Positions 3,933-29,888 of a stretch of DNA of 64,000 bases are shown piece by piece. The stretch is from assembly GCF_008831285.2 (NCBI RefSeq), contig NW_022204508.1, forward strand, positions 930,001-994,000, in the 5' to 3' direction. Both the position numbers and the translations under genes were made by a program. The stretch comes from Nymphaea colorata (taxonomy: Eukaryota > Streptophyta > Magnoliopsida > Nymphaeales > Nymphaeaceae). How positions within the stretch are numbered: the stretch's first letter is position 1; each line of letters opens with the position of its first letter. The notes under the pieces were generated by a model, which was not told the DNA's origin, made no database searches, and saw only the letters and a list, made by a program, of their open reading frames with translations.

Positions 3933-5328
3933 AAAATACACCCTATATATCATCCCCCCCTGTACCCGGATTTTTCAGAAATTGAAAATACTAGGTTATA
4001 AACATTTCTTGCATGAGAGTTGGAGCTGAGCAAATCCGCCATAAATTGCAATTTGTACTACCTATGCAACCATTTTAACACTCCTTCTAAAAGACAAATA
4101 CCAGGTTATAAACATTTAATGCATGAGGGTTTATCCTAACTCTCCATGTACATAATCCAGGTTATAAACAATTAATGCAGGAGGGTTGAGGGGTGCGAAA
4201 CACTTATTTCAATAATCATAACTCGAATGTGAATGAGAGTTAACTAATCCTAACTCTCTGTACAAGTGGGTGGTGTGGCAGGTAGACCCCACCCACTTGT
4301 AGGGCATACAGCCCAAAATGTGGGCGGCGTGGTAGGTAGACCCCGCCCACTTGTGGGACTGTATGTCCGTCAGAGATAGTTATCCATAATTTGATGGATA
4401 GTTAGTAATTACCATAATCCTAATTCTCAGCATCTATAATCTATCAACTCTCTAAACTACCATCCCTCTAATTATTACTACAGCATCTAGAATCTATCAA
4501 CTCTCTAAACTACCATCCCTCTAATTATTACTACAGAATCTAGAATCTATCAACTCTCTAAACTACAATCTCTCTAATAATAATGTCCAAGTTATAAATA
4601 ATTTTCCATAATCCTAACTCTCTGTACAAGTGGGGGTCGTCCACTACTACGACCCCACTTGTGGGGCGTCCACTACTACGCCCCAAAGAGAGTTAGGATT
4701 ATGGAAAATTATTTATAACTTGGACATTATTATTAGAGAGATTGTAGTTTAGAGAGTTGATAGATTATAGATTCTGTAGTAATAATTAGAGGGATGGTAG
4801 TTTAGAGAGTTGATAGATTCTAGATGCTGTAGTAATAATTAGAGGGATGGTAGTTTAGAGAGTTGATAGATTATAGATGCTGAGAATTAGGATTATGGTA
4901 ATTACTAACTATCCATCAAATTATGAATGAGAGTTAACTAATCCTAACTCTCTGACGGACATACAGTCCCACAAGTGGGCGGGCCACGCCACCCACTTGT
5001 ACAGAGAGTTAGGATTAGTCAACTCTCATTCATATTCGAGTTATGATTATTGAAATAAGTGTTTCACACCCCTCAACCCTCCTGCATTAATTGTTTATAA
5101 CCTGGATTATGTACATGGAGAGTTAGGATAACCCCTCATGCATTAAATGTTTATAACCTGGTATTTGTCTTTTAGAAGGAGTGTTAAAATGGTTGCATAG
5201 GTAGTACAAATTGCAATTTATGGCCGATTTGCTCAGCTCCAACTCTCATGCAAGAAATGTTTATAACCTAGTATTTTCAATTTCTGAAAAATCCGGGTAC
5301 AGGGGGGATGATATATAGGGTGTATTTT
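3933..5328. mobile_element. Foldback (long inverted-repeat) element, 1.4 kb
   Basis: The sequence folds on itself. The left arm (3,933-4,623) and right arm (4,687-5,328) are imperfect reverse complements down to a 63-base centre. The outer ends are AAAATACACCCTATATATC and its complement. Internal markers appear in both arms: the GTTATAAAC boxes, the run near 4,080-4,110 against 5,165-5,190, and a triplicated block (TCTATCAACTCTCTAAACTAC) near 4,440-4,555 with counterparts at 4,740-4,870. The right arm lacks about 50-60 bp of the ACCCACTTGT-rich part. There is no ORF, so it is a non-autonomous transposon of the foldback or snap-back MITE type. No convincing target-site duplication is visible and the superfamily is undetermined. 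Confidence 0.85.
4633..4684. repeat. Twin mini-hairpins at the foldback centre
   Basis: Two small perfect hairpins lie side by side at the symmetry centre. The first is GGGGTCGT, loop CCACTACT, ACGACCCC (4,633-4,656). The second is GGGGCGT, the same loop, ACGCCCC (4,663-4,684). The identical loop with differing stems shows a duplicated hairpin whose stems either changed in a compensatory way or arose by snap-back copying. Confidence 0.85.
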
Positions 5329-13302: not shown

Positions 13303-16300
13303 TGTTAGGATCCCGACCCCAACGGGCCGACCCAAGGAGCCGAGTCCTACTGCCAAGATCGCCTCGAGGAATCTAGACCAAAAACCTATACAAATAATAC
13401 AAGGAACTACCCGGCCGGACATGACCCCGGCACAAACCCAATAGGACGTGAATACACGAAAGGGTAATCCCAAAAACCTATCTAAAGTCAAACCTACTAC
13501 AGAAAACTACTAGGGATGTGAGGCCGTACAACCGTGTGCGATACAGAAATGCTCTCGCAACTCACTCAAGATCAAACCATACAAGCCACACAAACCATAA
13601 CTATGCGTAACAAACCACACCCAATACCCTAGGTAGGCTCGTCGATTAGCGGTCGTGTCTAGGCCAAGGGCCGTCGAGGTACCGCTGGAACCAACCAAGG
13701 CCGAAGCCGGGCTCAAGCAAATACGAAAGCAAATGCACCCGACCCGCGAAACTACAAGGGAGTGAGAGGGCGTTACCGGCCAAGCTAATATTGGCTTTCA
13801 GCAAGAAGGCCACGAGGTGAATCCCCAACCTCGGGCAATGCAGCAACAAACGAGGAGGACTCCGGTTGAGGTCGGCAGCGAACTGGATCTCGCGATGAAG
13901 TGGACGCTACACCGGAAGTCTTCAAATGGCCGGCTAGGGACGCCGGACGAGTTGCTGGAATACGGCCCTCCTGGCCGTGAGCAAGGGACAGCAGCAAGTC
14001 ACAAGCTACTGCTGGAAGAGGCCCGCCTGGCCGTGAAGGGAGCGCGGCAGCAAGGGGTGTGCCGAAGCTGGAAGGGTCCCGCTGTGCGTGGGGATGACCT
14101 TCGGAAGGGCTGGGTTCGGTATAGAACCGGGAGAGCCTAACTACGGGAAGGAGGAGAGCTCGGTCTAGAGCTCGGGCAGACCTAGCTACGAGGGAGGTCC
14201 GGCTATGGATGGCTGGCTAGGTCGTGGCTTAGGTGAGCTAAGTCAAGGCTTAGGGACAGCTGGGACAAGGTGGACTAAGGACTGGCTTAGGTTCAGATGC
14301 GGCTGGGTTGACTTGAATCAAGTCAAGACGCTAAGGAATGAAGAAGGTGCGGAAGAGAGGTGGCGGCTTGGGTGTAGCCGTGCAAGAGGTGGTCCGAATC
14401 ACTTAGGCAGCGTTGACCTTGGCTGCCTTAGGACCTAGGGCTACTTTCCAGAATAAGAGGAAAGGAGGCTCAAGGACGCGGGTTACCAAAATGGGATAAG
14501 TCGACTTAGGGGGGTTGACTAGGTTGGCGCGTGAAGGCTTACTCAAAGCGAAGTAAGGCTTGGCGCGGTTGGGACTAACCTAAGGCGACGGAATGGTGGA
14601 CTCGGCTAAGACTTTCCTAGCTGGTGAGGGTTGACTTGGCTGGTCAAGGGTTCCTAAGGGGAGTGAAACCAGGTGGCGGTTTCCTAACTAAGAAAGAGGG
14701 AGATGAGAAGGACGCCAATTGCCAAAGGCACGGGTTGGCGTGGAGATTTCCTTCCTTAGAGTGAGGAGGGAAGGGGGCGCCCAATTCCAAAATGAATTGA
14801 GAGCTAAGAGAGTTGCTAGAGAGAGACTAGCAAATTAGGAAATGATTCCAATCTCCTTCCTAATGAATAAGGAGGGAATTGGCTCGGCTTGCTCCCTAAA
14901 TTCGTGAGTAGGGAGAGGCACGTGGCCTTTGCCAAAAAAAGTAAGTCTTCAACGTTATTGCTCGAGTTCTCTTTCTCTTCTTCTCAACGGACTCAAAGGG
15001 GACGAGCAAGGCAAAATGGAAAGATGGGGCTAAGGGGTCACGCTGGATAATACTAAAGTTAAGAGCATGAGGTGGCAAGGGGAGAAATCCATGCGAGAGG
15101 GACTAAAGACGGTGGAGGAAAAGAAAGGGGAAAGTGCGATAACAAGGTTGACTCCAACGTTGACAAGTGTAAACCGTGGGACCTACAAGGAATTGGTTAA
15201 CGAGGTGGAAGGAAGAAGCTGGCTCGGTTCAGGTGGGGTCAAGAGGGGTAAGCACGAGGTGGCAAGGAGCTAAGGTAAGATACCAAAAATGGAGGAGACG
15301 AGCTGGGGCAAGGAGGAGGTGGCACTCTCGTGTGACTTCCCTTCCAAGTTGGGAAACCGCGTGAGGATGCTAAGGGATGCGGTAAGGCTTGACGAGGGAA
15401 GGGAGACCTCGTGTGGGCCAAGGGCAAGGGTGGGCTCTATAGGTGGCAGATGGAGAGGGACTGGGCTGGCGTGATGTTAGGGATATGATTTGGGGAGTAG
15501 GAGGTGGCACCCTCTCACGACTTCTCCAAAATGGAAACACGTGTGAGAGTCAACAAAAACGGTAGAGTGGCTGTACGAGGGAAAAGGGAAAGACGTGTGG
15601 GGCAGGCTGCTCGACAAGGAGGGAGGGGCCAGCTGGTGAGGTGGCAGGATGGGTAAGCTAGGATTAGGACACGTGGCGACACCAAGGGTGAAGATTAAAG
15701 GCTGGACTCGGTTGACTAAAAACAAGGCAACGAAGTTGGAAAGGGGATTGCGGCAAGGGGGAATCTTCCGGATTTGGTGGATTACGATGGGCTATGGATT
15801 GATTCTCGGCTGGGACGAGATCAGCCAAAAGGGACAGGTGGCTAGGTAAATCTGGGAGGCTAAGGGGATGGCTGACATGTGGTATAGGCAAGGGCTGAGA
15901 TTAAACACAAAAGAGAAGGAATAGGACTTACCAAATGAAGACCGGCGGCCAAGGAAACGCGTGAAGCACCGGCGGCTAGGGTGTTTTGCCCTAGTGCGCT
16001 CCTCCAATGAATGGACCAGAATACCCTTAAGCTGAAATTGAACTTCTCCACGGTCAGGGGCAGATTAGTCCACGCCGGAAATAGGCCAAAGTCTGGCCGG
16101 AATCAACAGAAATTCCACCGGAGTTGCAGAATTCAGGCTGAGGCTAGAATACGCGATTAATCAACTGGATGAAGCTCGTTTTTCACTATTTGATTCCTCT
16201 TGATGGGCGTCTTCTTCTTTGTATTCTTTTCTTTATTTTGACGCCGTTTGATGCACCTTGCAAGCCCTTTTTGCTTGCTGGATTTGTGCATCCGTTTTGC

Positions 16301-17720
16301 TCAAAAACGGAGGCAACCAAAGAGGCCCTTTTTTGAGGACGCTCGTGGGGAGCCTTCGTGCGTAGCGTGAGGGGAAGAACTTCAAGAATGCCAAGGAGTT
16401 CTTGAGACGCGTAAGCAAGGGTTTAATTCTGTTTCAGCCGCGGGATGAGAGCTCAATCTCACGGGTGTACACCGAGGGATTGAAATCCACCTTCTAGCCG
16501 AACTCAAGATCAAAACCGAGCAACGTGTTGCTCACCAACTTTTCTTGTTTTCTCTTCGTACTAACCTTTTTCTCTTGCGCTACTTTGATGTCTTTTGCTG
16601 CTGCTACCAGGTCGCCCAAGTTGCTGCAGCCTTCCCGGGATGAAGACAGCCTCACAACCTTCTTTGTGTTTGAGAAGGAAGGCACCGTGCTTCAACAAAA
16701 TGCTCGTGGGGTATTCTTCGTGGTCCGTTGGAGACGCCGCGCGCCGGAGCTTGCTGCTATCCCTAGGCCGTGATCCTTAGGTCGAGGGGGAGAGGAAGAA
16801 ACCAGAAAACAAGGTCGAGTGGAAGAGGGAGACCTTCGGTTGACAAGAGGGTAAAGGGATGCCGTCCTTCACCTAAGGGGCTGGAATGAAGAGGACGCCA
16901 TGGAGGATGACGCTAGGGCATGGAGATCCTTGAGGACGAGTGGTGGAAGAAGACGTTGCGCCATGGGTGAGGAGGGACGCCATGGAGAGAAGGGAGACCA
17001 CCGCGGGAGAGGGGTGAGCCAAGGGGAGTACGAGAGAGAGAAAGGGCATTCCGCCCAACACAATTCCTCAATTCATTTTCATTATTCAAAAGCATACTGA
17101 TTACATGAAATCAAAGACTTAAATAACTTCCTAATCAACTCGGTTCACATTCCGAACCGGTTCACTAAAGAAACAAATCAAAAACGGACTCAAATGGATC
17201 CAAAAACGGAACTCAAATGAAATCCAAAAACGGAGCTCCATGGGATCCAAAAACGGAACTCAATGGGGTCCAAAAACGGAACTCCATGGTATCCAAAAAC
17301 GAGCTCCAAAAAATCAATCCTAATGGACGCTATTCGTCCAAATAAAATGGTCCGTGGATCATTTGGATCCACTTGCTTGGGCGCATGGTTGAGCTTGGAC
17401 CGGCTCAACCCCCTTTTGCCTAGGTTCGACCTAGACTACCTCGTGTGAACTTGGGTTAGGACTCGACTATAGGTTAGACCATTCAAGTACGGGAGAGTCC
17501 TAAAAAACGGATCAAAGCCACCTTGAGGTTTAATCTAATTTCGCTCACGCTTGGCCGTTGTTGCTCCGCCCGCTCCGCCCTCTGCAAGAACTCCAAGCTG
17601 TAAGTATTCCTCTGAAGCTGGCCTAGATACCTTGCTGGACTCACGTCCAGCCCTTACGAGCCTAGTCGGACCCGGCTTGGTCCTTGGTTCAGCCCTTACA
17701 AGCTGGCTGGATTTTCTGCT
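13303..17720 (-). mobile_element. Nearly complete large LTR, minus orientation (4.4 kb)
   Basis: It begins TGTTAGGATCCCGACC at 13,303, the reverse complement of the LTR 3' end, and runs to GGCTGGATTTTCTGCTCG near 17,720. Only the last few bases at the LTR 5' end (TAACA on this strand) are missing. It fuses there to the internal domain at the 6-bp string GCTCGT, present in both partners. It carries the 25-bp repeats (17,185-17,300), the GAACCGGTTC palindrome near 17,155 and the same unassigned antisense ORF region (13,817-14,140). Confidence 0.87.
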
Positions 17721-17737
17721 CGTCTAGTAGAGCAGAA

Positions 17738-19350
17738 ATGGACATACTCCTTAGCACCTACGAGAATGGCGTTTGTATTCGTGAATATACGTTGATCCAT
17801 GGACATACTAGGGATCAAGCTCCAAAGTGGACTTATGTCCAAGTCGGCAGTAATCCGAGTGTGACTTGATACTCCGACACCCTAGCATAAAAGGGCGTCA
17901 CCTTGAGTTGGCCATACATAAGGACACCCAAGAAATGTGGATAGCCAAAATCACTTACACGGGTAGACTTATTGTGGCTGGATACGAAGTAGAACATCGA
18001 GATTGGGCGCCAATCTATCATGGAGAAGTTATCCAAGTGGGGTTCTCAAAATTCCGCTTAGTGCTAGAAGAAAGACTCTCCCCCATGACCGAGAAGCAAA
18101 AAGAATATCATTATGAGTCCAGCGGCGAAGATGAGCAGAATGACCAAAGCACAAGGTCTCTTACGTGGGACGAAGTGCTCAACAAGATGAACGCCATGCT
18201 CGCCAGGATGGATCACAGAGAGGCGATCAGAAACAAGAAAATAGCCAGCGATAATAGACGGACTGAGCTTACTACAGAATCTGAAACTGAATCAGATTCG
18301 TCTAGTGAGGATGAAAAGTCCTCCCCTTCTCCAAAGACGCCTAAGAAAATAGTGCCAAAAGAGTACGAATTAGAAAGCGAAGAAGAGACTTCGTCTGAAA
18401 CCGAAGATGATAGTAGCACGGATTCTTCAAGCGATGAAGAGATAGAAGTGCCAAGTCGGGAGTGTGCCAATATCGGCGCCCTCAAGCCTTCAGAACGTGC
18501 AAGGACTGAAATTTCAGAAAAAGGGATACTTGGAGCCCCTCCTAGCGTTATCCCTAGTAGCAGCACGAGTATCACGTCTAAGGATACTAAAGGCATACTT
18601 GGCCCAGCCAAGACAATCAGTGCTATACGGCCTTTGGAATGGGTTCAACCTAGAGCATCAAGTGGGAACCAAAGGCCCAACCATCAGAACGAGTCGGTCA
18701 GACGGACAGACACAAAGAACTCCAATGGCATTTACGAAGGACTACTTCCCTTACCTGAACCTTCCAAGACGACAGAACAAGAGAAATTAAGGGAAACTAA
18801 TAGTACGTGTCCAAACTCAAACGAAGAGTGCTCATCTAGCCTAACACAAGCTGATAGTAGGGCGACACCTCTTGAAGAACTAACGCCTGAGGCAAGTCCT
18901 AAAGTGACGCCGATGCAAAGCAAAGAAGAAATCTTCACCCTAGCGTCACCTTTTAGATGGGCAGATGAGCCATGGAATCAAGAAACCCGTGAGCAAACAA
19001 AGATAGAAACAATGGGGCAGCGAGCCACGGGCAGCAAAGGGTTGTTACCACCTCCTAGCATCCTTATGAACCAACCTAAGGAGGGTGGTATGGATCACGA
19101 GTTCTTTGAGTCTCCCAAAAGTGCACGTATGAAACTCCAACAAGGGGCGACTCAAGAATTGGCAAGTCAAAACGCCAAAGTAGTTAGAGCCCAGTCCAGC
19201 AAGGCAGCTAGGCCAGTCACAGAGGAATACTTACAGCTTGGAGTTCTTGCAGTGGGAGGAGCGGGCGGAGCAACAACGGCCAAGCGTGAGCGAAATTGGA
19301 TTAAACCTCAAGGTGGCTTTGATCCGTTTTTAGGACTTTCCCGAACTTGA
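17738..19350 (+). pseudogene. FHA-like retrotransposon protein, frameshifted and fused to LTR sequence
   Basis: This is the second copy of the gene intact at 23,155-24,849. The ATG at 17,738 matches the second in-frame Met of the intact copy. A one-base loss near 17,852-17,856 shifts the frame inside the FHA-like domain; from 17,866 the frame stays open for 494 codons to 19,350. From about 19,195 the coding sequence runs into LTR DNA at a shared AGTCCAGCAAGG, so the last 50 or so residues are LTR-encoded and the normal C-terminus and second ORF are absent. Compared with the intact copy, the acidic centre is nearly unchanged. The segment coding for residues after about 300 differs by many amino acids and in-frame indels, which suggests coding constraint before this copy died. 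Confidence 0.82.
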
Positions 19351-22290
19351 ACGGTCTAACCTATAGTCGAGTCCTAATCCGAGTTCGCACGAGGTAGTCT
19401 AGGTCGAACCTAGGCAAAAGGGGGTTGAGCCGGTCCAAGCTCAACCATGCGCCCAAGCAAGTGGATCCAAATGATCCACGGACCATTTTATTTGGACGAA
19501 TAGCGTCCATTAGGATTGAGTTATTGGAGCTCGTTTTTGGACCCCATGGAGTTCCGTTTTTGGACCCCATTGAGTTCCGTTTTTGGATCCCATGGAGCTC
19601 CGTTTTTGGATTTCATTTGAGTTCCGTTTTTGGATCCATTTGAGTCCGTTTTTGATTTGTTTCTTTAGTGAACCGGTTCGGAATGTGAGCCGAGTTGCTT
19701 AGGCTATTATTTAAGTCATTGAATTCATGTAAATGTTATGCTTTTGAATAAGGAAAATGAATTGAGGAATTGTGTTGGGCGGAATGCCCTTTCTCTCTCT
19801 CGTACTCCCCTTGGCTCACCCCTCTCCCGCGGTGGTCTCCCTTCTCTCCTTGGCGTCCCTCCTCATCCATGGCGCAGCCTCTTCTCCTCCACTCGTCCTC
19901 AAGGTATCTCCCTAGCCTAGCGTCATCTCTCTTGGCGTCATCTACCTTTCAAATCCCAAGGTGAAGATCTGCATCGTCTTCAGCCCTCTTGTCAACCGAA
20001 GGTCTCCCTCTTCCACTCGTCCTTGTTTTCTGGTTTCTTCCTCTTCCCCTCGACCTAAGGATCACGGCCTAAGGATAGCAGCAAGCTCCGGCGCGCGGCG
20101 TCTCCAACGGACCACGAAGAATACCCCACGAGCATTTTGTTGAAGCACGGTGCCTTCCTTCTCAAACACAAAGAAGGTTGTGAGGCTGTCTTCATCCCGG
20201 GAAGGCTGCAGCAACTTGGGCAACCTGGTAGCAGCAGCAAAAGACATCAAAATAGCGAGAGAAAAAGGTTAGTACGTAGAGAAAACAAGAAGAGTTGGTG
20301 AGCAACACGTTGCTCGGATTTGATATTGTATTCGGCTAAAAGGTGGATTTCATTCCCTCGGTGCACACCCGAGAGTTTGAGCTCTCATCCCACGGCAGAA
20401 AACAGCACCAAATTCCAGCTTACGCGTCTCAAGAACTCCTTGGCATTCTTGAAGTTCTTCCCCTCACGCTATGCACGAAGGTTCCCAAAGAGCGTCCTCA
20501 CAAGAGCGCTTTGTTTGCCTCCGTTTTTGAGCAAAACGGATGCACAAATCCAGCAAGCAAAAAGGGCTTGCAAAGTGCATCAAAAGGCGTCAAAACAAAG
20601 AAAAGATTACAAAGAAGAAGACGCCCCATCAAGAGGAATCAAATAGTGGAAAACGAGCTTCATCCGGTTGATTAATCGCATGTTTTAGGCTAGGCCTGAA
20701 TTCAGCAAATCCGGTGAACTTTCTGTTGATTCCGGCCAGCTTTTGGCTAATTCCGGTGTGGACTAATCTGCCCCTGATCGTGGAAAAGCTTAGTTACAAA
20801 TCAAGGGTATTCTGGTCCTTGTTTGGAGGAGCGCACTAGGGCGTTCAACCCAGGCCGCCGGTGCTAGCTCGCACCTCCCTTGGCCGCCGGTCTTCATTTG
20901 GTAAGTGGCGTCCTCACATCTCCCTCTTTCTTAGTTAGGAAGTCGCCACCTGGCCTCACAACACCCCTTAGGAGCCCACGACCCACTCGTGTCAATCTTC
21001 ACTAGTTAGGTAAGCCAGCACCGTATCCTCCCTTGCTCTCCTCTAGTCAAGCCTTGACGCATCACTCCCTAGTTAACCTCTCTAGGTCGACCTCACCTAC
21101 TTGGGCAACCTAATCCCCTTGAGCCTCCTTTCCTCTTATTTGGGAAAGTAGCCTAGGTCCTAAGGCAGCCAATGTCAACGCTGCCTAAGTGATTTGGACC
21201 CACCTCTTGCACGGCTAGACCCAAGCCGCCACCTCCCTTCCGCACCTTCCTCATTCCTTAGCGTCTTGACTTGATTCAAGTCAACCCAGCCGCATCTGAA
21301 CCTAAGCCAGTCCTTAGTCCACCTTGTCCCTGCTGACCTTCAGCCTTGACTTAGCTCACCTAAGCCACGACCTAGCCAGCCATCCATAGTCGGACCTCCC
21401 TCGTAGCTAGGTCTGCCCAAGCTCTAGACCGAGCTCTTCTCCTTTCCGTAGCTAGATTCTCCCGGGTTCTATACCGAACCCAGCCCTTCCGAAGGTCATC
21501 CCCACGCACAGCGGGACCCTTCCAGCTTCGGCCTTTCGCTTGCTGCCGCGCTCCCTTCACGGCCAGGCGGGCCTCTTCCAGCAGTAGCTCGTGACTCGCG
21601 GCTGCCTCTTGCTCACGGCCAGGAGGGCCGTAGTCCAGCAACACGCCCGGCGTCCTTAGCCGGCCATTTGAAGACTTCCGGTGTAACTTCCACCTCGTCG
21701 CGGGGTCCAGTCCGCTACCTTCCTCATCCGGAATCCTCCTCATTTGTTGCTGCATTGCCCGAGGTCAGGGATTCACCTCGTGGCCACCTTGCTGACAGCC
21801 AAGACTAGCTTGGCCGGTAACGCCCTCTCACTCCCTTGTAGTTTCGCGGGTCGGGTGCACTTGCTTTCGTATTTGCTTGAGCCCGGCTTCGGCCTTGGTT
21901 GATTCCAGCGGTACCTCGACGGCCCTTGGCCTAGACACGATCGCTAATCAACGAGCCTACCTAGGGTATTGGGTGTGGTTTGTTACGAGTAGTTGTGGTT
22001 TATGTGGTTTGATGGTTTGAATTGAGTGAGTTGCGAGAGTACTTTTGTATCGCGCACGCTTGTACGGCCTGACATCCCTCGTAGATTTCTGTAGTAGGTT
22101 TTGACTTAGTTAGGTTTTTGGGATTTCCCCTACTTGTTCATCACGTCCTATTGGGTTTGCGCCGGGGTCCTGTCCGGCCGGGTAGTTCCTTGTATAATTT
22201 GTTTAGGATTTTGGTCTAGATTCCTCGAGGCGATCTTGGCAGTAGGACCTCGACTCCTTGGGTCGGCCCGTTGGGGTCGGGATCCTAACA
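19195..22290 (+). mobile_element. Large LTR shared by two tandem internal domains (3.1 kb)
   Basis: It starts about 89 bp inside the LTR because of fusion with the preceding internal domain, and ends GGATCCTAACA next to the primer-binding site of the following element. Compared with the LTR at 25,489-29,888 it lacks 1,211 bp: it passes at 20,898-20,906 from sequence like 27,282 directly to sequence like 28,493, and both partners carry TTGGTAAGT. It is therefore both the 3' LTR of the left internal domain and the 5' LTR of the right one. The 127-codon antisense ORF recurs at 21,372-21,755. Confidence 0.87.
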
Positions 22291-22292
22291 AT

Positions 22293-22310
22293 TGGTATCA
22301 GAGCCAGGTT
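22293..22310 (+). other. Primer-binding site, initiator-Met tRNA type
   Basis: TGGTATCAGAGCCAGGTT starts two bases after the LTR end (22,290). It is an 18-nt match to the complement of the 3' end of plant initiator-Met tRNA, the commonest primer for plant LTR retrotransposons. It fixes the plus-strand direction of this element. Confidence 0.95.
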
Positions 22311-23154
22311 GGGGAATTAATCTTGACTTAGCCGCGCTTGGACCAGTGAAGAGTAAGCATCCACGGACAGTGCAGCAGTCAGGACTTCAGACTTTCAGTA
22401 GGATTTCTTTTCAGGACTTTGTTTTCAGAACTAGGCGTATTGCGGTTTTCTGGACTGTAACAGTTGGCGACAGTGTATCAGCGATTTCATGGGGCAAACG
22501 AAGTCGGATTTGCCTCAAATTTGGTGGACAGACTCTTAATAATATGTGCTACAAAAGCTATTTAGGCTTCAGAAGATATTCTGCCCTAAACAGGACGTTT
22601 TTGGCCCTGCAACGTGCTAAAAGCCTGAACGGACAGAACCTGTTCGCGGAGCAGTTTGGCCAGAAGATTGCGTAGTTTCAGAGACTTCCCGAGGTCAAAA
22701 CGAGCTGAAATTTTCAGCATAGTCAGATAACTATCTCCTCTTAGTGCTGACAAAGTTTGAAGTCAAAACTCCACCGTTTGATATTTCTGTGCGTAAGTCC
22801 TTGAGGTGTCTTAAAACAGTCTGGACTAAGGGTGTGCACACCGCACCACCCTAGGGTACTCGAGCTCGAAGTTGCTGTCGAGGCATCAGGCGGATGCGAC
22901 AGTTAGGCCTCTCTCTTTAGGCCCAGCTGAGAGCAAGAGATAGTCACCGAGGTGCCAGGCGGAAACCAGTTCCTCCTCCCTTAGCGCACACAGGGCAGAA
23001 GTGTGGCTGATAGACAAGGGCAGAACAACGGTTTACAGCAGGTTCTTCGCAGCATAGGATTTTTTCTTTAAGAGTGGCAGTGTGACCGTTTGTTTGGTTT
23101 CAGCAGTAGCGTAGGCTTTGCTTTGGCAGTTTGCTTGGTAGATTAGAAGGCGGA
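22311..23154 (+). mobile_element. Retrotransposon leader region, apparently noncoding
   Basis: This 0.84 kb between primer-binding site and first ORF shows no protein domain. One open frame (22,292-22,675) begins at a non-ATG codon, overlaps the primer-binding site and has no recognisable motif, so I do not call it. The leader is where a packaging or dimerisation signal would be expected in a non-autonomous element, but no specific structure can be claimed by eye. Confidence 0.7.
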
Positions 23155-24849
23155 ATGAGGTGCTCGTCTAATAGAGCAGAAATGGACATACTCCTTAGCA
23201 CCTTCGAAAATGGCGTTTGCATTCGGACAGATACGTTGATCCATGGACATACTAGGGATCAAGCTCCAAAGTGGACTTATGTCCAAGTTGGCAGTAATCC
23301 CACGTGTGACTTGACACTCCGACACCCTAGCATAAAAGGGCGTCACTTTGAGTTAGCCATACGTAAGGACACCCAAGAAATGTGGATCGCCAAAATCACT
23401 TACACGGGTAGACTTATGGTGGATGGACACGAAGTAGAACATCGAGATTGGGCGCCAATCTATCATGGAGAAGTTATCCAAGTGGGGTTCTCAAAATTCC
23501 GCTTAGTGCTAGAAGAAAGACTCTCCCCCGTGACCGAGAAGCAAAAAGAATATCATTATGAGTCCAGCGGCGAAGATGAGCAGAATGACCAAAGCACAAG
23601 GTCTCTTACGTGGGACGAAGTGCTCAACAAGATGAACGCCATGCTCGCCAGGATGGATCACAGAGAGGCGATCAGAAACAAGAAAATAGCCAGCGATAAT
23701 AGACGGACTGAGCTTACTACAGAATCTGAAACTGAATCAGATTTGTCTAGTGAGGATGAAAAGTCCTCCCCTTCTCCAAAGACGCCTAAGAAAATAGTGC
23801 CAAAAGAGTACGAATTAGAAAGCGAAGAAGAGACTTCGTCTGAAACCGAAGATGATAGTAGCACGGATTCTTCAAGCGATGAAGAGATAGAAGTGCCAAG
23901 TCGGGAGTGTGCCAATATCGGCGCCCTCAAGCCTTCAGAACGTGCAAGGACTGAAATTTCAGAAAAAGGGATACTTGGAGCCCCTCCTAGCGTTATCCCT
24001 AGTAGCAGCACGAGTATCACGTCAAAGGATACTAAAGGCATACTTGGCCCAGCCAAGACACTAAGTGCTATACGGCTTTTGGAATGGGTTCAACCTAGAA
24101 CAACAAGTGAGAACCAAAGGCCCAACCAGCAAAATGAGTCGGTAGGACGGAAAGACATGAAGCACTCCAATGGCATCTACGAAGGATTACTTCCCCTACC
24201 TACCCAGACGTCAGAACAAATAAGGGAAAGTAATAGAGCGTGTCCAAACTCAAACGAAGAGTGTTCATCTAGCCTAACACGAGCAGAAAGTAGGGCGACC
24301 CCTCTCGAAGGACTAACACCTGAGGCAAGTCCCAAAGAGAGGCCAAGGCAAAGCAACGAAGAACTCTTCACCCCAACTTCACCTTTCAGATGGGCAGATG
24401 AGCCATGGAACCGTGAACCCCTAGAGCGAACAGAAATGAAAACAATGGGGCAGCCAGCCACGGGCAGCAAAGGGTTGTTACCACCTCCTAGCATCCTTAA
24501 GAACCAACCTAAGGAGGGTGGTATGGATCACGACTTCTTAGAGTCTCCCAAAAATGCACGAAGGAAACTCCAACAAGGGGCGACTCAAGAATTGGCAAGT
24601 CAAAACGCCAAAGTAGTTAGAGCCCAAGACAAGAGACCCTCTCTTGTTCAGCGCCAAGAAGGAAAAGAGGTAGTTGCCACCTCTAAGAGAAACAAAAAGG
24701 GCTCCAAACCCGGGTGTAAGCAAAGAACCAAACCGCTTAGCATCCGGGAGCAGTTTGAAGAAGAGCTCCTAGCAAAGAAGACGGAATCCTCCCCAAGTCT
24801 GAAGAGGAAAGCGAGAATGTTGTTGAGGAACGTCATGGCCTTAAGATGA
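23155..24849 (+). CDS. LTR-retrotransposon ORF1 protein with N-terminal FHA-like domain
   Basis: The frame encodes 564 residues from the first in-frame ATG (23,155). A second ATG (23,182) has a better context (G at -3 and G at +4) and is the only start retained in the 17.7-kb copy. Residues about 40-119 follow the FHA order: VGS-x3-CDLTL, then IKGRHFEL at the usual SRxH site, TGRLMVDGHEV at the NGTxVNG site, and HGEVIQVG before the final strand. FHA domains bind phosphothreonine peptides. Here the usual Ser is Lys and the Asn is Thr, while Gly, the Arg-His pair and the hydrophobic pattern remain, so phosphopeptide binding is uncertain. A basic segment (about 158-178), an acidic Ser/Thr tract with CK2-like sites (about 185-248), four [KE]G[IL]L motifs and a basic C-terminus follow. 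No gag zinc knuckle, protease, RT, RNase H or integrase is seen. Function unknown; a gag-like, chromatin-targeting or host-captured role are options. Confidence 0.72.
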   Translation: MRCSSNRAEMDILLSTFENGVCIRTDTLIHGHTRDQAPKWTYVQVGSNPTCDLTLRHPSIKGRHFELAIRKDTQEMWIAKITYTGRLMVDGHEVEHRDWAPIYHGEVIQVGFSKFRLVLEERLSPVTEKQKEYHYESSGEDEQNDQSTRSLTWDEVLNKMNAMLARMDHREAIRNKKIASDNRRTELTTESETESDLSSEDEKSSPSPKTPKKIVPKEYELESEEETSSETEDDSSTDSSSDEEIEVPSRECANIGALKPSERARTEISEKGILGAPPSVIPSSSTSITSKDTKGILGPAKTLSAIRLLEWVQPRTTSENQRPNQQNESVGRKDMKHSNGIYEGLLPLPTQTSEQIRESNRACPNSNEECSSSLTRAESRATPLEGLTPEASPKERPRQSNEELFTPTSPFRWADEPWNREPLERTEMKTMGQPATGSKGLLPPPSILKNQPKEGGMDHDFLESPKNARRKLQQGATQELASQNAKVVRAQDKRPSLVQRQEGKEVVATSKRNKKGSKPGCKQRTKPLSIREQFEEELLAKKTESSPSLKRKARMLLRNVMALR

Positions 24850-25412
24850 CAGATATAGGAGCAGCCAGTGAGCAGTACACCGTGACCACCTTAGCCTCTT
24901 CCCAGCGTCAAATACAGTCTAGGAAAGGTGGTCGGCAACATAATTTACCTACTCTGGGCAATTACATTGAAAAACTCTACCCAGAGCATTGGAAAGCATA
25001 CCAATTTCCAGACTCTCCAAACTGTAGTCGGGAATTGAGGGACCCTCATAACTCCCTTAATCCAAACATGTCAGGCTTATTACTAGGCCCCGACTATAGT
25101 AAGCGCGCAGCAGAAGCGCAGTGGCCTGTCCTAGTGAGCAGCAACACTTGGCAATCGCAAAAACACGGGCAGACCACCACACAGAAGAAGAGCGTAAGTG
25201 GAAGCAAACAGCTGCAAGGGCAGCAAAGGCTTCACATCGGGCAGCTGCCTAGAGATTACGGCCCCGAACGGATACATCAAGAAACGAGTAAGACAACTCG
25301 GGTCTTCACCCGGAATTTCAAGAAAGGGCCGAGAGGAAGTTTCCTCAACCAGAGGAACTCCATAGAAGTACTACCCCGGACTATGGACCAAAAGAAAAAT
25401 TTATGTGGGTAG
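24846..25412 (+). CDS. ORF2 of the non-autonomous retrotransposon, unknown function
   Basis: This 188-residue frame begins at the ATG of an ATGA overlap with the ORF1 stop and ends 76 bp before the LTR. The product is polar and rich in Gln, Lys, Ser and Arg. A moderately hydrophobic stretch (LGNYIEKLYPEHWKAYQF, about residues 37-54) is the only part resembling a folded segment. I recognise no gag, zinc-knuckle, protease or polymerase motif. The overlap suggests coupled reinitiation or a frameshift extension of ORF1, or the ORF may be a remnant of a longer ancestral frame. Among the copies here only this one retains it, so conservation cannot be tested within the window. Confidence 0.5.
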   Translation: MTDIGAASEQYTVTTLASSQRQIQSRKGGRQHNLPTLGNYIEKLYPEHWKAYQFPDSPNCSRELRDPHNSLNPNMSGLLLGPDYSKRAAEAQWPVLVSSNTWQSQKHGQTTTQKKSVSGSKQLQGQQRLHIGQLPRDYGPERIHQETSKTTRVFTRNFKKGPRGSFLNQRNSIEVLPRTMDQKKNLCG

Positions 25413-25474
25413 CACGTGGAACTCAGACCCATCCGGAAAAAGGTAAAGCAAGAGCTTGGGGACAAGCTCATTTT

Positions 25475-25486
25475 AAGGAGGGTGGA
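25475..25486 (+). other. Polypurine tract
   Basis: AAGGAGGGTGGA lies two bases before the LTR start TGTTACG (25,489). In LTR retrotransposons this tract primes plus-strand DNA synthesis and defines the 5' end of the 3' LTR. The same tract flanks the minus-strand LTR at 9,653-9,664, which confirms the LTR border. Confidence 0.88.
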
Positions 25487-25488
25487 TC

Positions 25489-28400
25489 TGTTACGAGCCA
25501 AAAATCCCGCCATCTTGTAAGGGCTGAACCAAGGACCAAGCTGGGTCCAACTAGGCTCGTAAGGGCTGGACGTGAGTCCAGCAAGGTATCTAGGCCAGCT
25601 TCAGAGGAATACTTACAGCTTGGAGTTCTTGTAGTGGGCGGAGCAGGCGGAGCAACAACGGCCAAGCGTGAGCGAAATTGGATTAAACCTCAAGGTGGCT
25701 TTGATCCGTTTTTAGGAATTTCCCGAACTTGAACGGTCTAACCTATAGTCGAGTCCTAATCCGAGTTCGCACGAGGTAGTCTAGTCGAACCTAGGCAAAA
25801 GGGGGTTGAGCCGGTCCAAGCTCAACCATGCGCCCAAGCAAGTGGATCCAAATGATCCACGGACCATTTTATTTGGACGAATAGCGTCCATTAGGATTGA
25901 GTTATTGGAGCTCGTTTTTGGATCCCATGGAGTTCCGTTTTTGGACCCCATTGAGTTCCGTTTTTGGATCCCATGGAGCTCCGTTTTTGGATTTCATTTG
26001 AGTTCCGTTTTTGGATCCATTTGAGTCCGTTTTTGATTTGTTTCTTTAGTGAACCGGTTCGGAATGTGAACCGAGTTGCTTAGGAGATTATTTAAAGGAT
26101 TGAATTCATGTAAATGTTATGCTTTTGAATAATGAAAATGAATTGAGGAATTGTGTTGGGCGGAATGCCCTTTCTCTCTCTCGTACTCCCCTTGGCTCAC
26201 CCCTCTCCCGCGGTGGTCTCCCTTCTCTCCTTGGCGTCCCTCCTCATCCATGGCGCAGCCTCTTCTCCTCCACTCGTCCTCAAGGTATCTCCCTAGCCTA
26301 ACGTCATCTCTCTTGGCGTCATCTACCTTTCAAACCCCAAGGTGAAGATCTGCATCGTCTTCAGCCCTCTTGTCAACCGAAGGTCTCCCTCTTCCACTCG
26401 ACCTTGTTTTCTGGTTTCTTCCTCTCCCCCTCGACCTAAGGATCACGGCCTAAGGATAGCAGCAAGCTCCGGCGCGCGGCGTCTCCAACGGACCACGAAG
26501 AATACCCCACGAGCATTTTCTTGAGGCACGGTGCCTTCCTTCTCAAGCACAAAGAAGGTTGTGAGGCTGTCTTCATCCCGGGAAGGCTGCAGCAACTTGG
26601 GCGACCTGGTAGCAGCAGCAAAAGACATCAAAGTAGCGCAAGAGAAAAAGGTTAGTACGAAGAGAAAACAAGAAAAGTTAGTGAGCAACACGTTGCTCGG
26701 TTTTGATCTTGAGTTCGGCTAGAAGATGGATTTCAATCCCTCGGTGTAAACCCGTGAGATTGAGCTCACATCCCGTGGCTGAAAACAGAATTAAACCCTT
26801 GCTTACGCGTCTCAAGAACTCCTTGGCTTTCTTGAGTTCTTTCCCTCACGCTACGCACGAAGGTTCCCCACGAGCGTCCTCAAAAAAGGGCCTCTTTGGT
26901 TGCCTCCGTTTTTGGGCAAAACGGATGCACAAATCCAGCAAGCAAAAAGGGCTTGCAAAGTGCATCAAAAGGGGTCAAAACAAAGAAAGAAATACAAAAA
27001 AGAAGACGCCCCATCAAAAGGAATCAAACGGCTGAATTTGAGCTTCATCCGGCTACTCGTTCTCGTGTTTTAGGCCCGGCCTGAACCCTGCAATTTCCGG
27101 TGAACTTTCTGTGATTCCGGCCAGACTTTGGCCCTTTTCTGGCGTGGACTAATCTGCCCCTGACGTGGAACTGTTCAATAACAAGCTGAGGGATTCTGGT
27201 CCATTGTTGGAGGAGCGCACTAGGGTAAATCACCCTAGCCGCCGGTGCTAGCTCGCACCTTCCTTGGCCGCCGGTCTTCATTTGGTAAGTCCTATTCTTT
27301 CTCTCTTTTGTTTAATCCTAGCCCTTGAGTGAGCCACGTGTCAGCCATCCCCTTAGCCTCCCAGATTTACCTAGCCACCTGTCCCACTTGGTTGATTCGG
27401 TCCCAGCCGAGAATCATCCAAGACTCCATCGAATTCCCCCAAATCCGGTAAATCCCTCTCCTCGCAATCTCCTTACCAATTTTGTTGCCAATCTTGTAGT
27501 CAACCGAGTCCTTCCTCTCATCTTAGCCATTGGTGTCGCCACGTGTCGTCATCCCAGCCTGCAGCTCCTGCCACCTCACCAGCTAGTCCCTCCTTCCTTG
27601 TCGAGCAGCCTACCCCACGCGTTTTCACCTTTTCCCTCGCATAATCCCTCTACCGTTTTTGTTGACTCTCACACGTATTTCCATTTTGGTGGAGCGTTGT
27701 GAGAACGCCACCTCCTCCTCTTCCCTATCCGAGCCCCTTCCTTTTTGTTAGCCCCAAGCCTCATCACCAGGTCACCACTCCCTCTCGAGACCTTGGCCCC
27801 ACACGTTTTACCTTTCTCATCCCTTAGAGCCCTTGCCGATTTCGTAGAGGCCATCACACGTTTTCCTTTTGGAAGTGAGGTCTAGGAATTCGCCACCTCC
27901 TCCTTGCCCCAGCTCGTCTCCTCCATTTTTGGTATCTTACCTTAGCTCCTCTCCACCTCACCTTCCCTAATTATTACCCACCTGAACCGAGCCAGCTTTC
28001 CCCCTCTATGTCGCACACCATTCCTTTGTAGGTCCCACGGTTTACACTTGTCAACGTTGGAGCCAACCTTGTTATCGCACTTCCCCCTTTCTTTTCCTCC
28101 ACCGTCTTTAGTCCCTCTCGCATGGAGTTCTCCCCTTGCCCTCATGCTCTTACCTTGAGTGTTAGCCAGCTTTACCCCTTTAGCTCTTGCCTAATCCCTT
28201 TCTTGTCGAGTCACCCCTTGTGTCCCTCGTGAAGAAGAGAAGAAGGAGTCCCCACGCGCCTAACGTTGAAGTCTTACCTTTTTGGCATTAGCCACGTGCC
28301 CTCCCCTTTCCTACGAGCTAGGAAAGGAACTTAACGCCAATTCAATCCTTATACCTTAGGAAAGAATTGGAATCCCTTCCTTATTCGCTAGTCTCTCTCT

Positions 28401-29888
28401 AGCGATCCTCTTAGCTCTAATTTCCATTTTGGAATTAGACGCCCTTTTCCTCCTCTACCGAAGGAAGGAAATCTCCACGCCACCCTTGCCTCTTGGTAAG
28501 TGGCATCCTCACATCTCCCTCTTTCTTAGTTAGGAAGTCGCCACCTGGCCTCACAACACCCCTTAGGAGCCCACGACCCACTCGTGTCAATCTTCACTAG
28601 TTAGGTAAGCCAGCACCGTATCCTCCCTTGCTCTCCTCTAGTCAAGCCTTGACGCATCACTCCCTAGTTAACCTCTCTAGGTCGACCTCACCTACTTGGG
28701 CAACCTAATCCCCTTGAGCCTCCTTTCCTCTTATTTGGGAAAGTAGCCTAGGTCCTAAGGCAGCCAATGTCAACGCTGCCTAAGTGATTTGGACCCACCT
28801 CTTGCACGGCTAGACCCAAGCCGCCACCTCCCTTCCGCACCTTCCTCATTCCTTAGCGTCTTGACTTGATTCAAGTCAACCCAGCCGCATCTGAACCTAA
28901 GCCAGTCCTTAGTCCACCTTGTCCCTGCTGACCTTCAGCCTTGACTTAGCTCACCTAAGCCACGACCTAGCCAGCCATCCATAGTCGGACCTCCCTCGTA
29001 GCTAGGTCTGCCCGAGCTCTAGACCGAGCTCTTCTCCTTTCCGTAGCTAGATTCTCCCGGGTTCTATACCGAACCCAGCCCTTCCGAAGGTCATCCCCAC
29101 GCACAGCGGGACCCTTCCAGCTTCGGCCTTTCGCTTGCTGCCGCGCTCCCTTCACGGCTAGGCGGGCCTCTTCCAGCAGTAGCTCGTGACTCGCGGCTGC
29201 CTCTTGCTCACGGCCAGGAGGGCCGTAGTCCAGCAACACGCCCGGCGTCCTTAGCCGGCCATTTGAAGACTTCCGGTGTAACTTCCACCTCGTCGCGGGA
29301 TCCAGTCCGCTACCTTCCTCATCCGGAATCCTCCTCAATTGTTGCTGCATTGCCCGAGGTCAGGGATTCACCTCGTGGCCACCTTGCTGACAGCCAAGAC
29401 TAGCTTGGCCGGTAACGCCCTCTCACTCCCTTGTAGTTTCGCGGGTCGGGTGCACTTGCTTTCGTATTTGCTTGAGCCCGGCTTCGGCCTTGGTTGATTC
29501 TAGCGGTACCTCGACGGCCCTTGGCCTAGACACGATCACTAATCAACGAGCCTACCTAGGGTATTGGGTGTGGTTTGTTACGAGTAGTTGTGGTTTGTGT
29601 GGTTTGATGGTTTGAATTGAGTGAGTTGCGAGAGTACTATTGTATCGCGCACGCTTGTACGGCCTCACATCCCTCGTAGTTTTCGGTAGTAGGTTTTGAT
29701 TTAGTTAGGTTTTTTGGGATTACCCCATCCGTGTATTCACGTCCTATTGGGTTTGCGCCGGGGTCCTGTCCGGCCGGGTAGTTCCTTGTATTATTTGTTT
29801 AGGTCTCTTTGGTCTAGATTCCTCGAGGTGATCTTGGCAGTAGGACATCGACTCCTTGGGTCGGCCCGTTGGGGTCGGGATGCTAACA
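25489..29888 (+). mobile_element. Complete large LTR (4.4 kb), reference copy
   Basis: It starts TGTTACGAGCC and ends GATGCTAACA, giving the 5-bp terminal inverted repeat TGTTA/TAACA. At 4,400 bp it is longer than the 3.2-kb internal domain, as in LARD elements. In order it holds five 25-bp repeats (about 25,910-26,035), the GAACCGGTTC palindrome and half-site near 26,051, a TATTTAA box near 26,089 that could be a promoter, a long pyrimidine-rich stretch (27,280-28,900) with repeated GCCACCTCCTCC modules, and the GGCC-N5-GGCC pair near 29,156 and 29,211. An antisense 127-codon ORF (28,967-29,350) recurs in other LTRs; no function is assigned. The base after the LTR is the start of another primer-binding site, not a target-site duplication. 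Confidence 0.92.

Follow-up and report, generated by a model that had tools for sequence, protein, structure and literature searches.

Where does a retrotransposon obtain a host signalling domain, and what use could it make of it? The question is raised by a locus in the genome of Nymphaea colorata (contig NW_022204508.1, positions 930,001 to 994,000), a stretch of 64,000 nucleotides that was analysed as a whole and is called the window below. The first-pass annotation of this stretch had described an FHA-like domain in an open reading frame (ORF) of a non-autonomous long terminal repeat (LTR) retrotransposon. We consider it likely that the element is one of a large group of non-autonomous LTR retrotransposons, that these obtained their FHA domain through the spliced RNA of a PARALLEL SPINDLE-like (PS1/PSL) gene, a host gene for the spindle of dividing cells, that related Ty3/gypsy elements mobilize the group, and that the domain now acts as a binding module which does not recognize phosphothreonine in the canonical manner. 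The two features at the centre of this account are as follows.

23155..24849, forward strand: FHA-bearing ORF of the element; 5′ portion of a longer ORF, here broken into two frames (ORF reading, Pfam, relatives)
23284..23487, forward strand: FHA domain (PF00498), residues 44-111 in the reading from the ATG at 23155 (Pfam, AlphaFold2, fold matches)

Profile and fold searches agreed on the nature of the domain. The ORF is present as annotated, with an ATG at 23155 and a stop codon ending at 24849, but it is incomplete, corresponding to the 5′ part of a longer frame in intact relatives. The Pfam FHA profile matched residues 44-111 with an E-value of 1.3e-7 and 32.4 bits (curated cut-off 20.7), and a chance match is very unlikely. 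Twelve of 13 aligned members of the group matched the same profile at E ≤0.1. A profile built on the 13 relatives retrieved 30 solved sequences at E ≤1 (best E 2.2e-4), mostly FHA proteins, Ki-67, Rad53, NIPP1, CHFR and GarA included; a few weak matches were to non-FHA proteins. AlphaFold2 predicted a confident β-sandwich, with pLDDT values of 84-94 by blocks over residues 11-120. When this model was searched with Foldseek, 109 PDB matches were obtained at E ≤0.001, the best at 7.1e-8. Comparison of the model with solved FHA domains (VIA) gave a top Z of 14.9, with a root-mean-square deviation of 3.0 Å over 110 residues. FHA was named in many of the 50 match rows from these two comparisons. 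Spliceosome chains, CEP170, TIFA, Pml1 and EmbR were also among the matches, and we take these to be FHA proteins as well. The best match among viral proteins was a phage protein named FHA. By profile and by fold, the FHA domain in the window ORF is real. The claim of an FHA-like domain was thus upheld by the profile search and structure prediction proposed with it, which gave a significant FHA match and an FHA β-sandwich. The motifs VGSNPTCDLTL, TGRLMVDG and HGEVIQVG are present in the ORF as they had been named. The GRH assigned to the SRxH site is also there, as KGRH, but the site is degenerate in the window copy, with Ser changed to Lys and Arg to Gly.

This degeneration extends to the whole phosphothreonine-binding site. 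In the plant PSL genes, according to the text available of one report, the site has kept its Gly, Arg, Ser and His; of the Asn residues known from Rad53, one is replaced by His and another mostly by Ser (PMC3071787). The PS1-like gene of the host genome carries R, S, HGT and SG at these positions. At the host R, S and H-G-T positions the window copy has S, K and G-R-L, also when aligned with Rad53, and the canonical binding residues (Arg of GR, Ser of SRxH and the Asn/His-Gly-Thr loop) are absent from it. We compared 40 FHA rows from the genome, which are related, so that residue counts among them are not counts of independent events. The Arg was kept in 13 of the 40, the Ser in 6 and the Gly-Thr pair in 6. 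Leu occupied the Thr position in 30 rows, 29 of which read [RK]-L and 24 G-[RK]-L. The rows nearest PS1 retained more of the old residues, and some kept HGT and SG. A middle group kept the Arg and mostly read G-K-L, while the group of the window copy had Ser or Gln in place of the Arg and mostly read G-R-L.

The coding sequence of the domain remained constrained. In a codon model of 10 sequences and 122 codons, the ratio of nonsynonymous to synonymous rates (omega, dN/dS) was 0.42 (lnL -2979.10), against a lnL of -3016.35 with omega fixed at 1, a run in which kappa was fixed at 2.0. Pairwise omega was about 0.2-0.6 for pairs with dS >0.3; some pairs were saturated, and close pairs with few changes scattered above 1. 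Locus L007, which has an internal stop, was left out of the dN/dS reading. The FHA domain is under purifying selection. Because the site residues were replaced while omega was 0.42, this looks like a change of use of the domain rather than its decay.

A protein search for relatives, in which 77 of 284 candidates were scored, found at least 87 matches to the FHA element protein in the genome, spread over many contigs, some of them pieces of one copy. We grouped the loci read into six families, named A to F in this analysis.

Family A: the family of the window copy, with up to 877 amino acids open
Family B: L011, L012 and L014, 885-888 amino acids where read whole
Family C: L013, 658 amino acids
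Family D: L020 (872 amino acids) and L021 (broken)
Family E: L015-L018, 880 amino acids in L015 and L016
Family F: L019, broken

Intact relatives have a single frame of about 650-890 amino acids. In family E it closes just short of the polypurine tract (PPT), and in families A-D it continues across the tract. The FHA domain of family E is about 31% identical to that of the window copy. Five copies of family C are open over all 658 amino acids and 98-100% identical. LTR pairs, a primer-binding site (PBS) and a PPT were present in all four families examined (B-E). Over the parts read, the two LTRs were 99.8% identical in B (1009 bp), 99.88% in C (831 bp), 100% in D (204 bp) and 98.3% in E (584 bp). 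TG...CA ends and a 5-bp target-site duplication (TSD) were read in B, C and D; family E was without a clean TSD. Because of the near-identical LTR pairs, the TG...CA ends and the TSDs, these families are true, partly recent LTR insertions. Pfam scans found no gag, protease, reverse transcriptase (RT) or integrase in the proteins of six relatives, five of them intact. No GAG domain matched the six element proteins at E ≤1, and no other ORF of at least 180 amino acids was found in L015, L016 or L018-L020. The earlier description as a non-autonomous LTR retrotransposon is supported by these LTRs, PBS and PPT without pol domains. We also noted words like the PPT, AAGGAGGGTGG, inside the coding frame (PKEGG) of L012 (2123-4789) and relatives. 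One or two of them occur besides the PPT itself in L001, L012, L013 and L015, and they might serve as extra plus-strand primers.

The donor of the domain was sought among the FHA sequences of the same genome. An FHA profile scan (150 of 164 candidates scored) listed 107 matches, of which 36 were translated. By position, 84 of the 107 lay on lineage matches or rows read, and 5 of the remaining 23 were within 2.5 kb of a PPT motif. One match, L064, proved to be exon 1 of the host locus L072, for which we inferred a gene model. Its FHA domain is interrupted by a GT-AG intron, and a PIN_4 domain (E 2.4e-12) lies further along the same strand. PARALLEL SPINDLE 1 (AtPS1/PSL) combines FHA with PINc in the accounts available (PMC2581889, PMC3071787), one of which, in the text available, found no close homolog carrying the two domains outside plants (PMC2581889). 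L072 is therefore best described as a PARALLEL SPINDLE-like host gene and, on sequence comparison, the probable FHA donor.

We ranked 10 host FHA sequences, some of them partial, against the 40 rows, using rank instead of E-values since the latter referred to 10 sequences only; tL040 was replaced by the longer tL075, and L064 by the joined exons. The PS1-like gene was the best host match for all 40 of the other rows. Identity to it reached 43-46% over 87-114 residues in L037, L048 and L075. The GKMIPV...NG start of the gene recurs in L080, with variants in L075 and L082. In a tree of 50 rows and 125 columns, with host rows from this genome only, a branch with support of 95/88 separated the PS1-like gene and the 40 rows (41 in all) from the other 9 host rows, and the PS1-like gene was placed among the 40 rows. 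The suggestion of a captured host domain was therefore sustained, and it gained a probable donor. A single capture would be sufficient to explain these relationships, though it is not proven. The element frames that we read are without the FHA intron of the PS1-like gene and open across its position, pointing to capture from spliced RNA; L080 has a frame shift at the intron position and no space for an intron. No PIN domain was matched in the window ORF or in the six element proteins by Pfam scans.

The 3′ junction of the window element recurs in pol elements.

25452..25469, forward strand: inverted repeat GAGCTTG-GGGA-CAAGCTC directly before the PPT, common to FHA and pol elements
25475..25488, forward strand: PPT AAGGAGGGTGG and junction to the 3′ LTR

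A 34-base motif made of the pre-PPT inverted repeat, the PPT and the LTR start, with up to two mismatches allowed, occurred at 217 genome sites; the reversed control gave 0. Eight of the sites were read in small pieces. Three of them (L023, L027 and L028) matched protease, RT or integrase, the RT of L023 being recognized by eye only, and a gag match was found in L034, the flank of L028. Four others gave an FHA ORF (L022), its later part (L025) and its C-terminal motifs (L026 and L029), and L024 was ambiguous. In L027 an RVT_1 frame lies upstream of an Integrase_H2C2/rve frame, which is the Ty3/gypsy order. LTR pieces at L023 (L030 and L031) were 69-72% identical to the window LTR over 221-390 bp. 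The L027 and L028 flanks were matched by short stretches of LTR or leader from families B-E. Leader pieces of C and D were 72-74% identical to L030 and L034. Ty3/gypsy pol elements sharing this PPT-LTR junction are likely kin of the helper.

The search for partners and donor that had been proposed earlier thus succeeded in part: a donor gene and Ty3/gypsy kin were found, but no autonomous FHA element was seen among the three pol loci read. No FHA domain was present in ten ORFs scanned at these loci and at flanks L030, L032 and L034. A chromodomain was considered for the helper elements, as the tail at L027 looked alike by eye; it was not confirmed by Pfam, and the PDB search gave one weak match (E 2.2). 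L073 carries an FHA domain together with a weak protease-like match (RVP_2, E 0.0039, below the cut-off). No RT was recognized there in frames read by eye, five of which were scanned, and L073 may have descended from a more complete element. Its part behind the FHA domain is matched by frames in L078 (861-5222, 1454 amino acids) and L079 (522-4916, 1465 amino acids), in which no FHA was seen by eye, these frames not having been profile-scanned. They contain a protease-like stretch reading DGN, where the usual protease site is DSG, and a PPT-like ACGQA word. Perhaps they represent a further group of elements without pol that has preserved a long frame. The pre-PPT inverted repeat itself (window 25452-25488 and the 217 sites) is found in FHA and pol elements alike, and could form an RNA hairpin for plus-strand priming or packaging.

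Behind the FHA domain, the window protein contains an acidic region and a long tail.

23707..23886, forward strand: acidic Ser/Thr-rich tract, densest 60 residues

The CK2-like acidic Ser/Thr tract noted earlier is present, with 13 CK2-like sites in its densest 60 residues, a number reached by 13 of 1000 shuffles. Proteins of families A and B have a dense tract of this kind; those examined from C, D and E do not, although they kept the FHA domain. The idea of phospho-dependent self-association through this tract was not supported, as the window copy and most of its relatives have other residues where phosphothreonine would be gripped. The absence of the tract from the C, D and E proteins likewise lowered its standing as an FHA ligand. 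Chromatin tethering by the FHA protein is conceivable. In the tail, the motifs PRDYGP, KEGG and RGPRRCF are conserved in intact relatives; the predicted model of the C-terminal 329 residues of L012 was unusable (pLDDT 41.7).

The remaining features of the window copy are listed below.

17717..19193, forward strand: second, broken FHA ORF copy, with the FHA split over two frames near 17860
19193..22290, forward strand: upstream LTR copy without its first bases and an inner segment (LTR comparison)
22293..22304, forward strand: PBS TGGTATCAGAGC (sequence reading)
22297..23154, forward strand: leader between PBS and ORF, resembling leader pieces of families B, C and D
24846..25412, forward strand: the same protein continued in another frame, with conserved C-terminal motifs such as PRDYGP (alignment of intact relatives)
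25489..29888, forward strand: 3′ LTR (about 4.4 kb), then a PBS-like stub and satellite

The PBS is presumably of the iMet type. The ORF is split near its 3′ end into a 572-amino-acid frame and the next ORF at 24846-25412, and a Pfam scan of the window ORF found no RT, integrase, protease or gag. The start of the upstream LTR and about 1.2 kb of its interior are missing, and the downstream LTR continues into a few bases of the PBS-like stub before satellite DNA begins. Because the element ends are rearranged, a TSD is unreadable in this copy. The second copy is without the 3′ part of the ORF, the PPT and the LTR start. Overall, much of window 1-29900 is a dense nest of rearranged and inverted copies of one LTR up to the satellite edge (for example, 14612-17723 against 28609-25493). 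It includes a 642-bp palindrome at 4342-4983, with arms 90% identical and 53-bp tandem repeats in each arm. The satellite at 29900-64000 is AT-rich (about 30% GC), with a 115-bp unit and higher orders of 345 bp and roughly 3.1 kb. Near-identical units occur on many contigs, and it is possibly centromeric. The elements in the window adjoin this array, and contigs C16 and C171 carry both satellite and elements. We make no claim of centromere targeting from this, as repeats accumulate in unplaced contigs anyway and the satellite search scored 40 of its 3357 candidates.

Taken together, these results suggest the following course of events. The FHA domain would have been captured from a spliced transcript of the PS1/PSL-like gene. 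It lost its phosphothreonine-binding residues stepwise, and most rows now read [RK]-L there, usually within G-[RK]-L. The shared termini suggest that related Ty3/gypsy elements supply the proteins for copying the element RNA and inserting it. Selection together with the residue changes suggests that the FHA domain and the long tail form a binding module or adaptor, which would no longer read phosphothreonine in the usual way; its likeliest use may be to join element RNA or protein to the helper particle or to a host factor. A more specific version, which we regard as doubtful, is that the FHA of a meiotic spindle gene became a new, phosphate-independent module, usually with a G-[RK]-L site, targeting a whole cohort of non-autonomous elements to helper integration machinery or centromere-near chromatin. 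If this were true, most FHA-coding DNA in the genome would be retroelement cargo under selection.

Several points weigh against the adaptor explanation. Two full-length relatives, L009 (17.4 bits) and L012 (17.5 bits), fall below the Pfam FHA cut-off. The motif that replaced the old residues varies (G-[RK]-L in 24/40, [RK]-L in 29/40), omega is rough where dS exceeds 1, and the tail may hold an undetected fold. The window FHA is about 24% identical to PS1 and is linked to it via intermediates. Of the 40 FHA rows, 22 had a PBS or PPT read or listed in their vicinity, and the five closest to PS1 (L038, L045, L046, L057 and L075) could be gene copies, not elements. As for the helper, its link is based on shared termini, the pol frames read at helper-type loci are broken by stops, no match to the window LTR was obtained at E 1e-4 with the L027 and L028 flanks, and a minority of the window-LTR matches was inspected for a closer helper. 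The present function of the domain, trans-mobilization, packaging and binding are all drawn from sequence comparison.

The same loss of canonical binding residues in most rows would also be expected of a passive passenger, acquired by read-through or template switching, with the ORF kept for translation in cis that favours stable or packaged RNA and the protein having no binding role. No fold was predicted for the part of the tail that was modelled, and transduction of the Bs1 type is a known accident of LTR elements in the text available (PMC13317346). This seems unlikely to us, since omega is about 0.42 across families, the FHA is retained over the deep divergence of A and E with 12 of 13 rows matching Pfam, and [RK]-L is common to 29 of 40 rows. 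The FHA fold, the order of the motifs, the acidic tract of families A and B, and the Arg, Ser and Gly-Thr retained in some rows would suit a canonical module that still recognizes phosphorylated proteins, perhaps including its own acidic tract, and so self-associates or tethers to chromatin. Against this stand the S, K and G-R-L of the window copy where the host gene has R, S and H-G-T, and the missing tract in the C, D and E proteins, making such a module improbable.

The origin of the domain can be questioned separately. The tree leaves room for another FHA gene as donor, or for several captures with the PS1 resemblance due to convergence: element rows alone as a clade were neither demonstrated nor rejected (p-AU 0.123), and the host rows are partly exons with long branches. 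Several captures are possible by this token. Yet PS1 ranked best for 40 of 40 rows, three of them at 43-46% identity, the GKMIPV...NG start recurs in L080 and in variants, and HGT or SG persists in several rows, so that we give another donor or convergence little credence. FHA is usually a host domain, and the ORF could in principle belong to an ordinary host gene or family flanked by LTR fragments by accident. This has practically no probability left, as separate families carry a PBS, a PPT, TG...CA ends, TSDs and matching pairs of LTRs, and the matches lie on many contigs; for families B, C and D it is refuted by the TSDs.

The adaptor explanation can be set beside known systems. Bs1 of maize is a single low-copy family. 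In the accounts available it is, like the elements here, an LTR element with coding pieces of host genes (PMC13317346, PMC7264820), whereas the FHA domain occurs in at least six families with its binding site changed under selection. In Phalaenopsis, Ty3/gypsy elements with a 2-ODD (m6A demethylase) likewise keep a host domain over subfamilies, as far as the available text goes; at 25 kbp they are large, and their cofactor-binding residues are retained (PMC9289625), while the FHA elements show no gag-pol and most have lost the canonical residues of the donor. PS1/PSL of plants has an FHA of the same lineage as the elements, and the host locus has FHA then PIN_4, as in the published description of AtPS1 available (PMC2581889); the element proteins differ in lacking PIN in Pfam scans and in their altered phosphate-site residues. 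The Ty3/gypsy elements of the same genome (L023, L027, L028) share the pre-PPT inverted repeat, PPT and LTR start, but carry gag, protease, RT or integrase matches and, in the ten ORFs, no FHA. TR-GAG and LARD elements, like the FHA elements, have LTRs, a PBS and a PPT without pol; unlike TR-GAG, the six FHA-element proteins scanned have no GAG domain and a host-derived FHA instead.

We found no report of an FHA domain encoded by an LTR element in the open literature searched, and 'FHA' is absent from the main text of PMC13317346, PMC9289625, PMC11963269, PMC7264820 and PMC6317226. Capture of host genes by plant LTR elements is known, and long retention of a domain is called rare in the available text of one report (PMC9289625). 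The FHA elements are a new instance of host-domain capture, with Bs1 and the orchid 2-ODD elements as the nearest precedents; that selfish elements should retain a domain taken from the host is unusual. For annotation of this genome they carry a warning, as most FHA matches listed here (84/107) belong to this lineage and not to other host genes. The rows form a series from the probable donor via part-canonical forms to a derived, widely copied form with a commonly shared motif. With this natural series one can ask how a host signalling domain benefits a retrotransposon, and test whether the proteins of non-autonomous elements act in their own spread.
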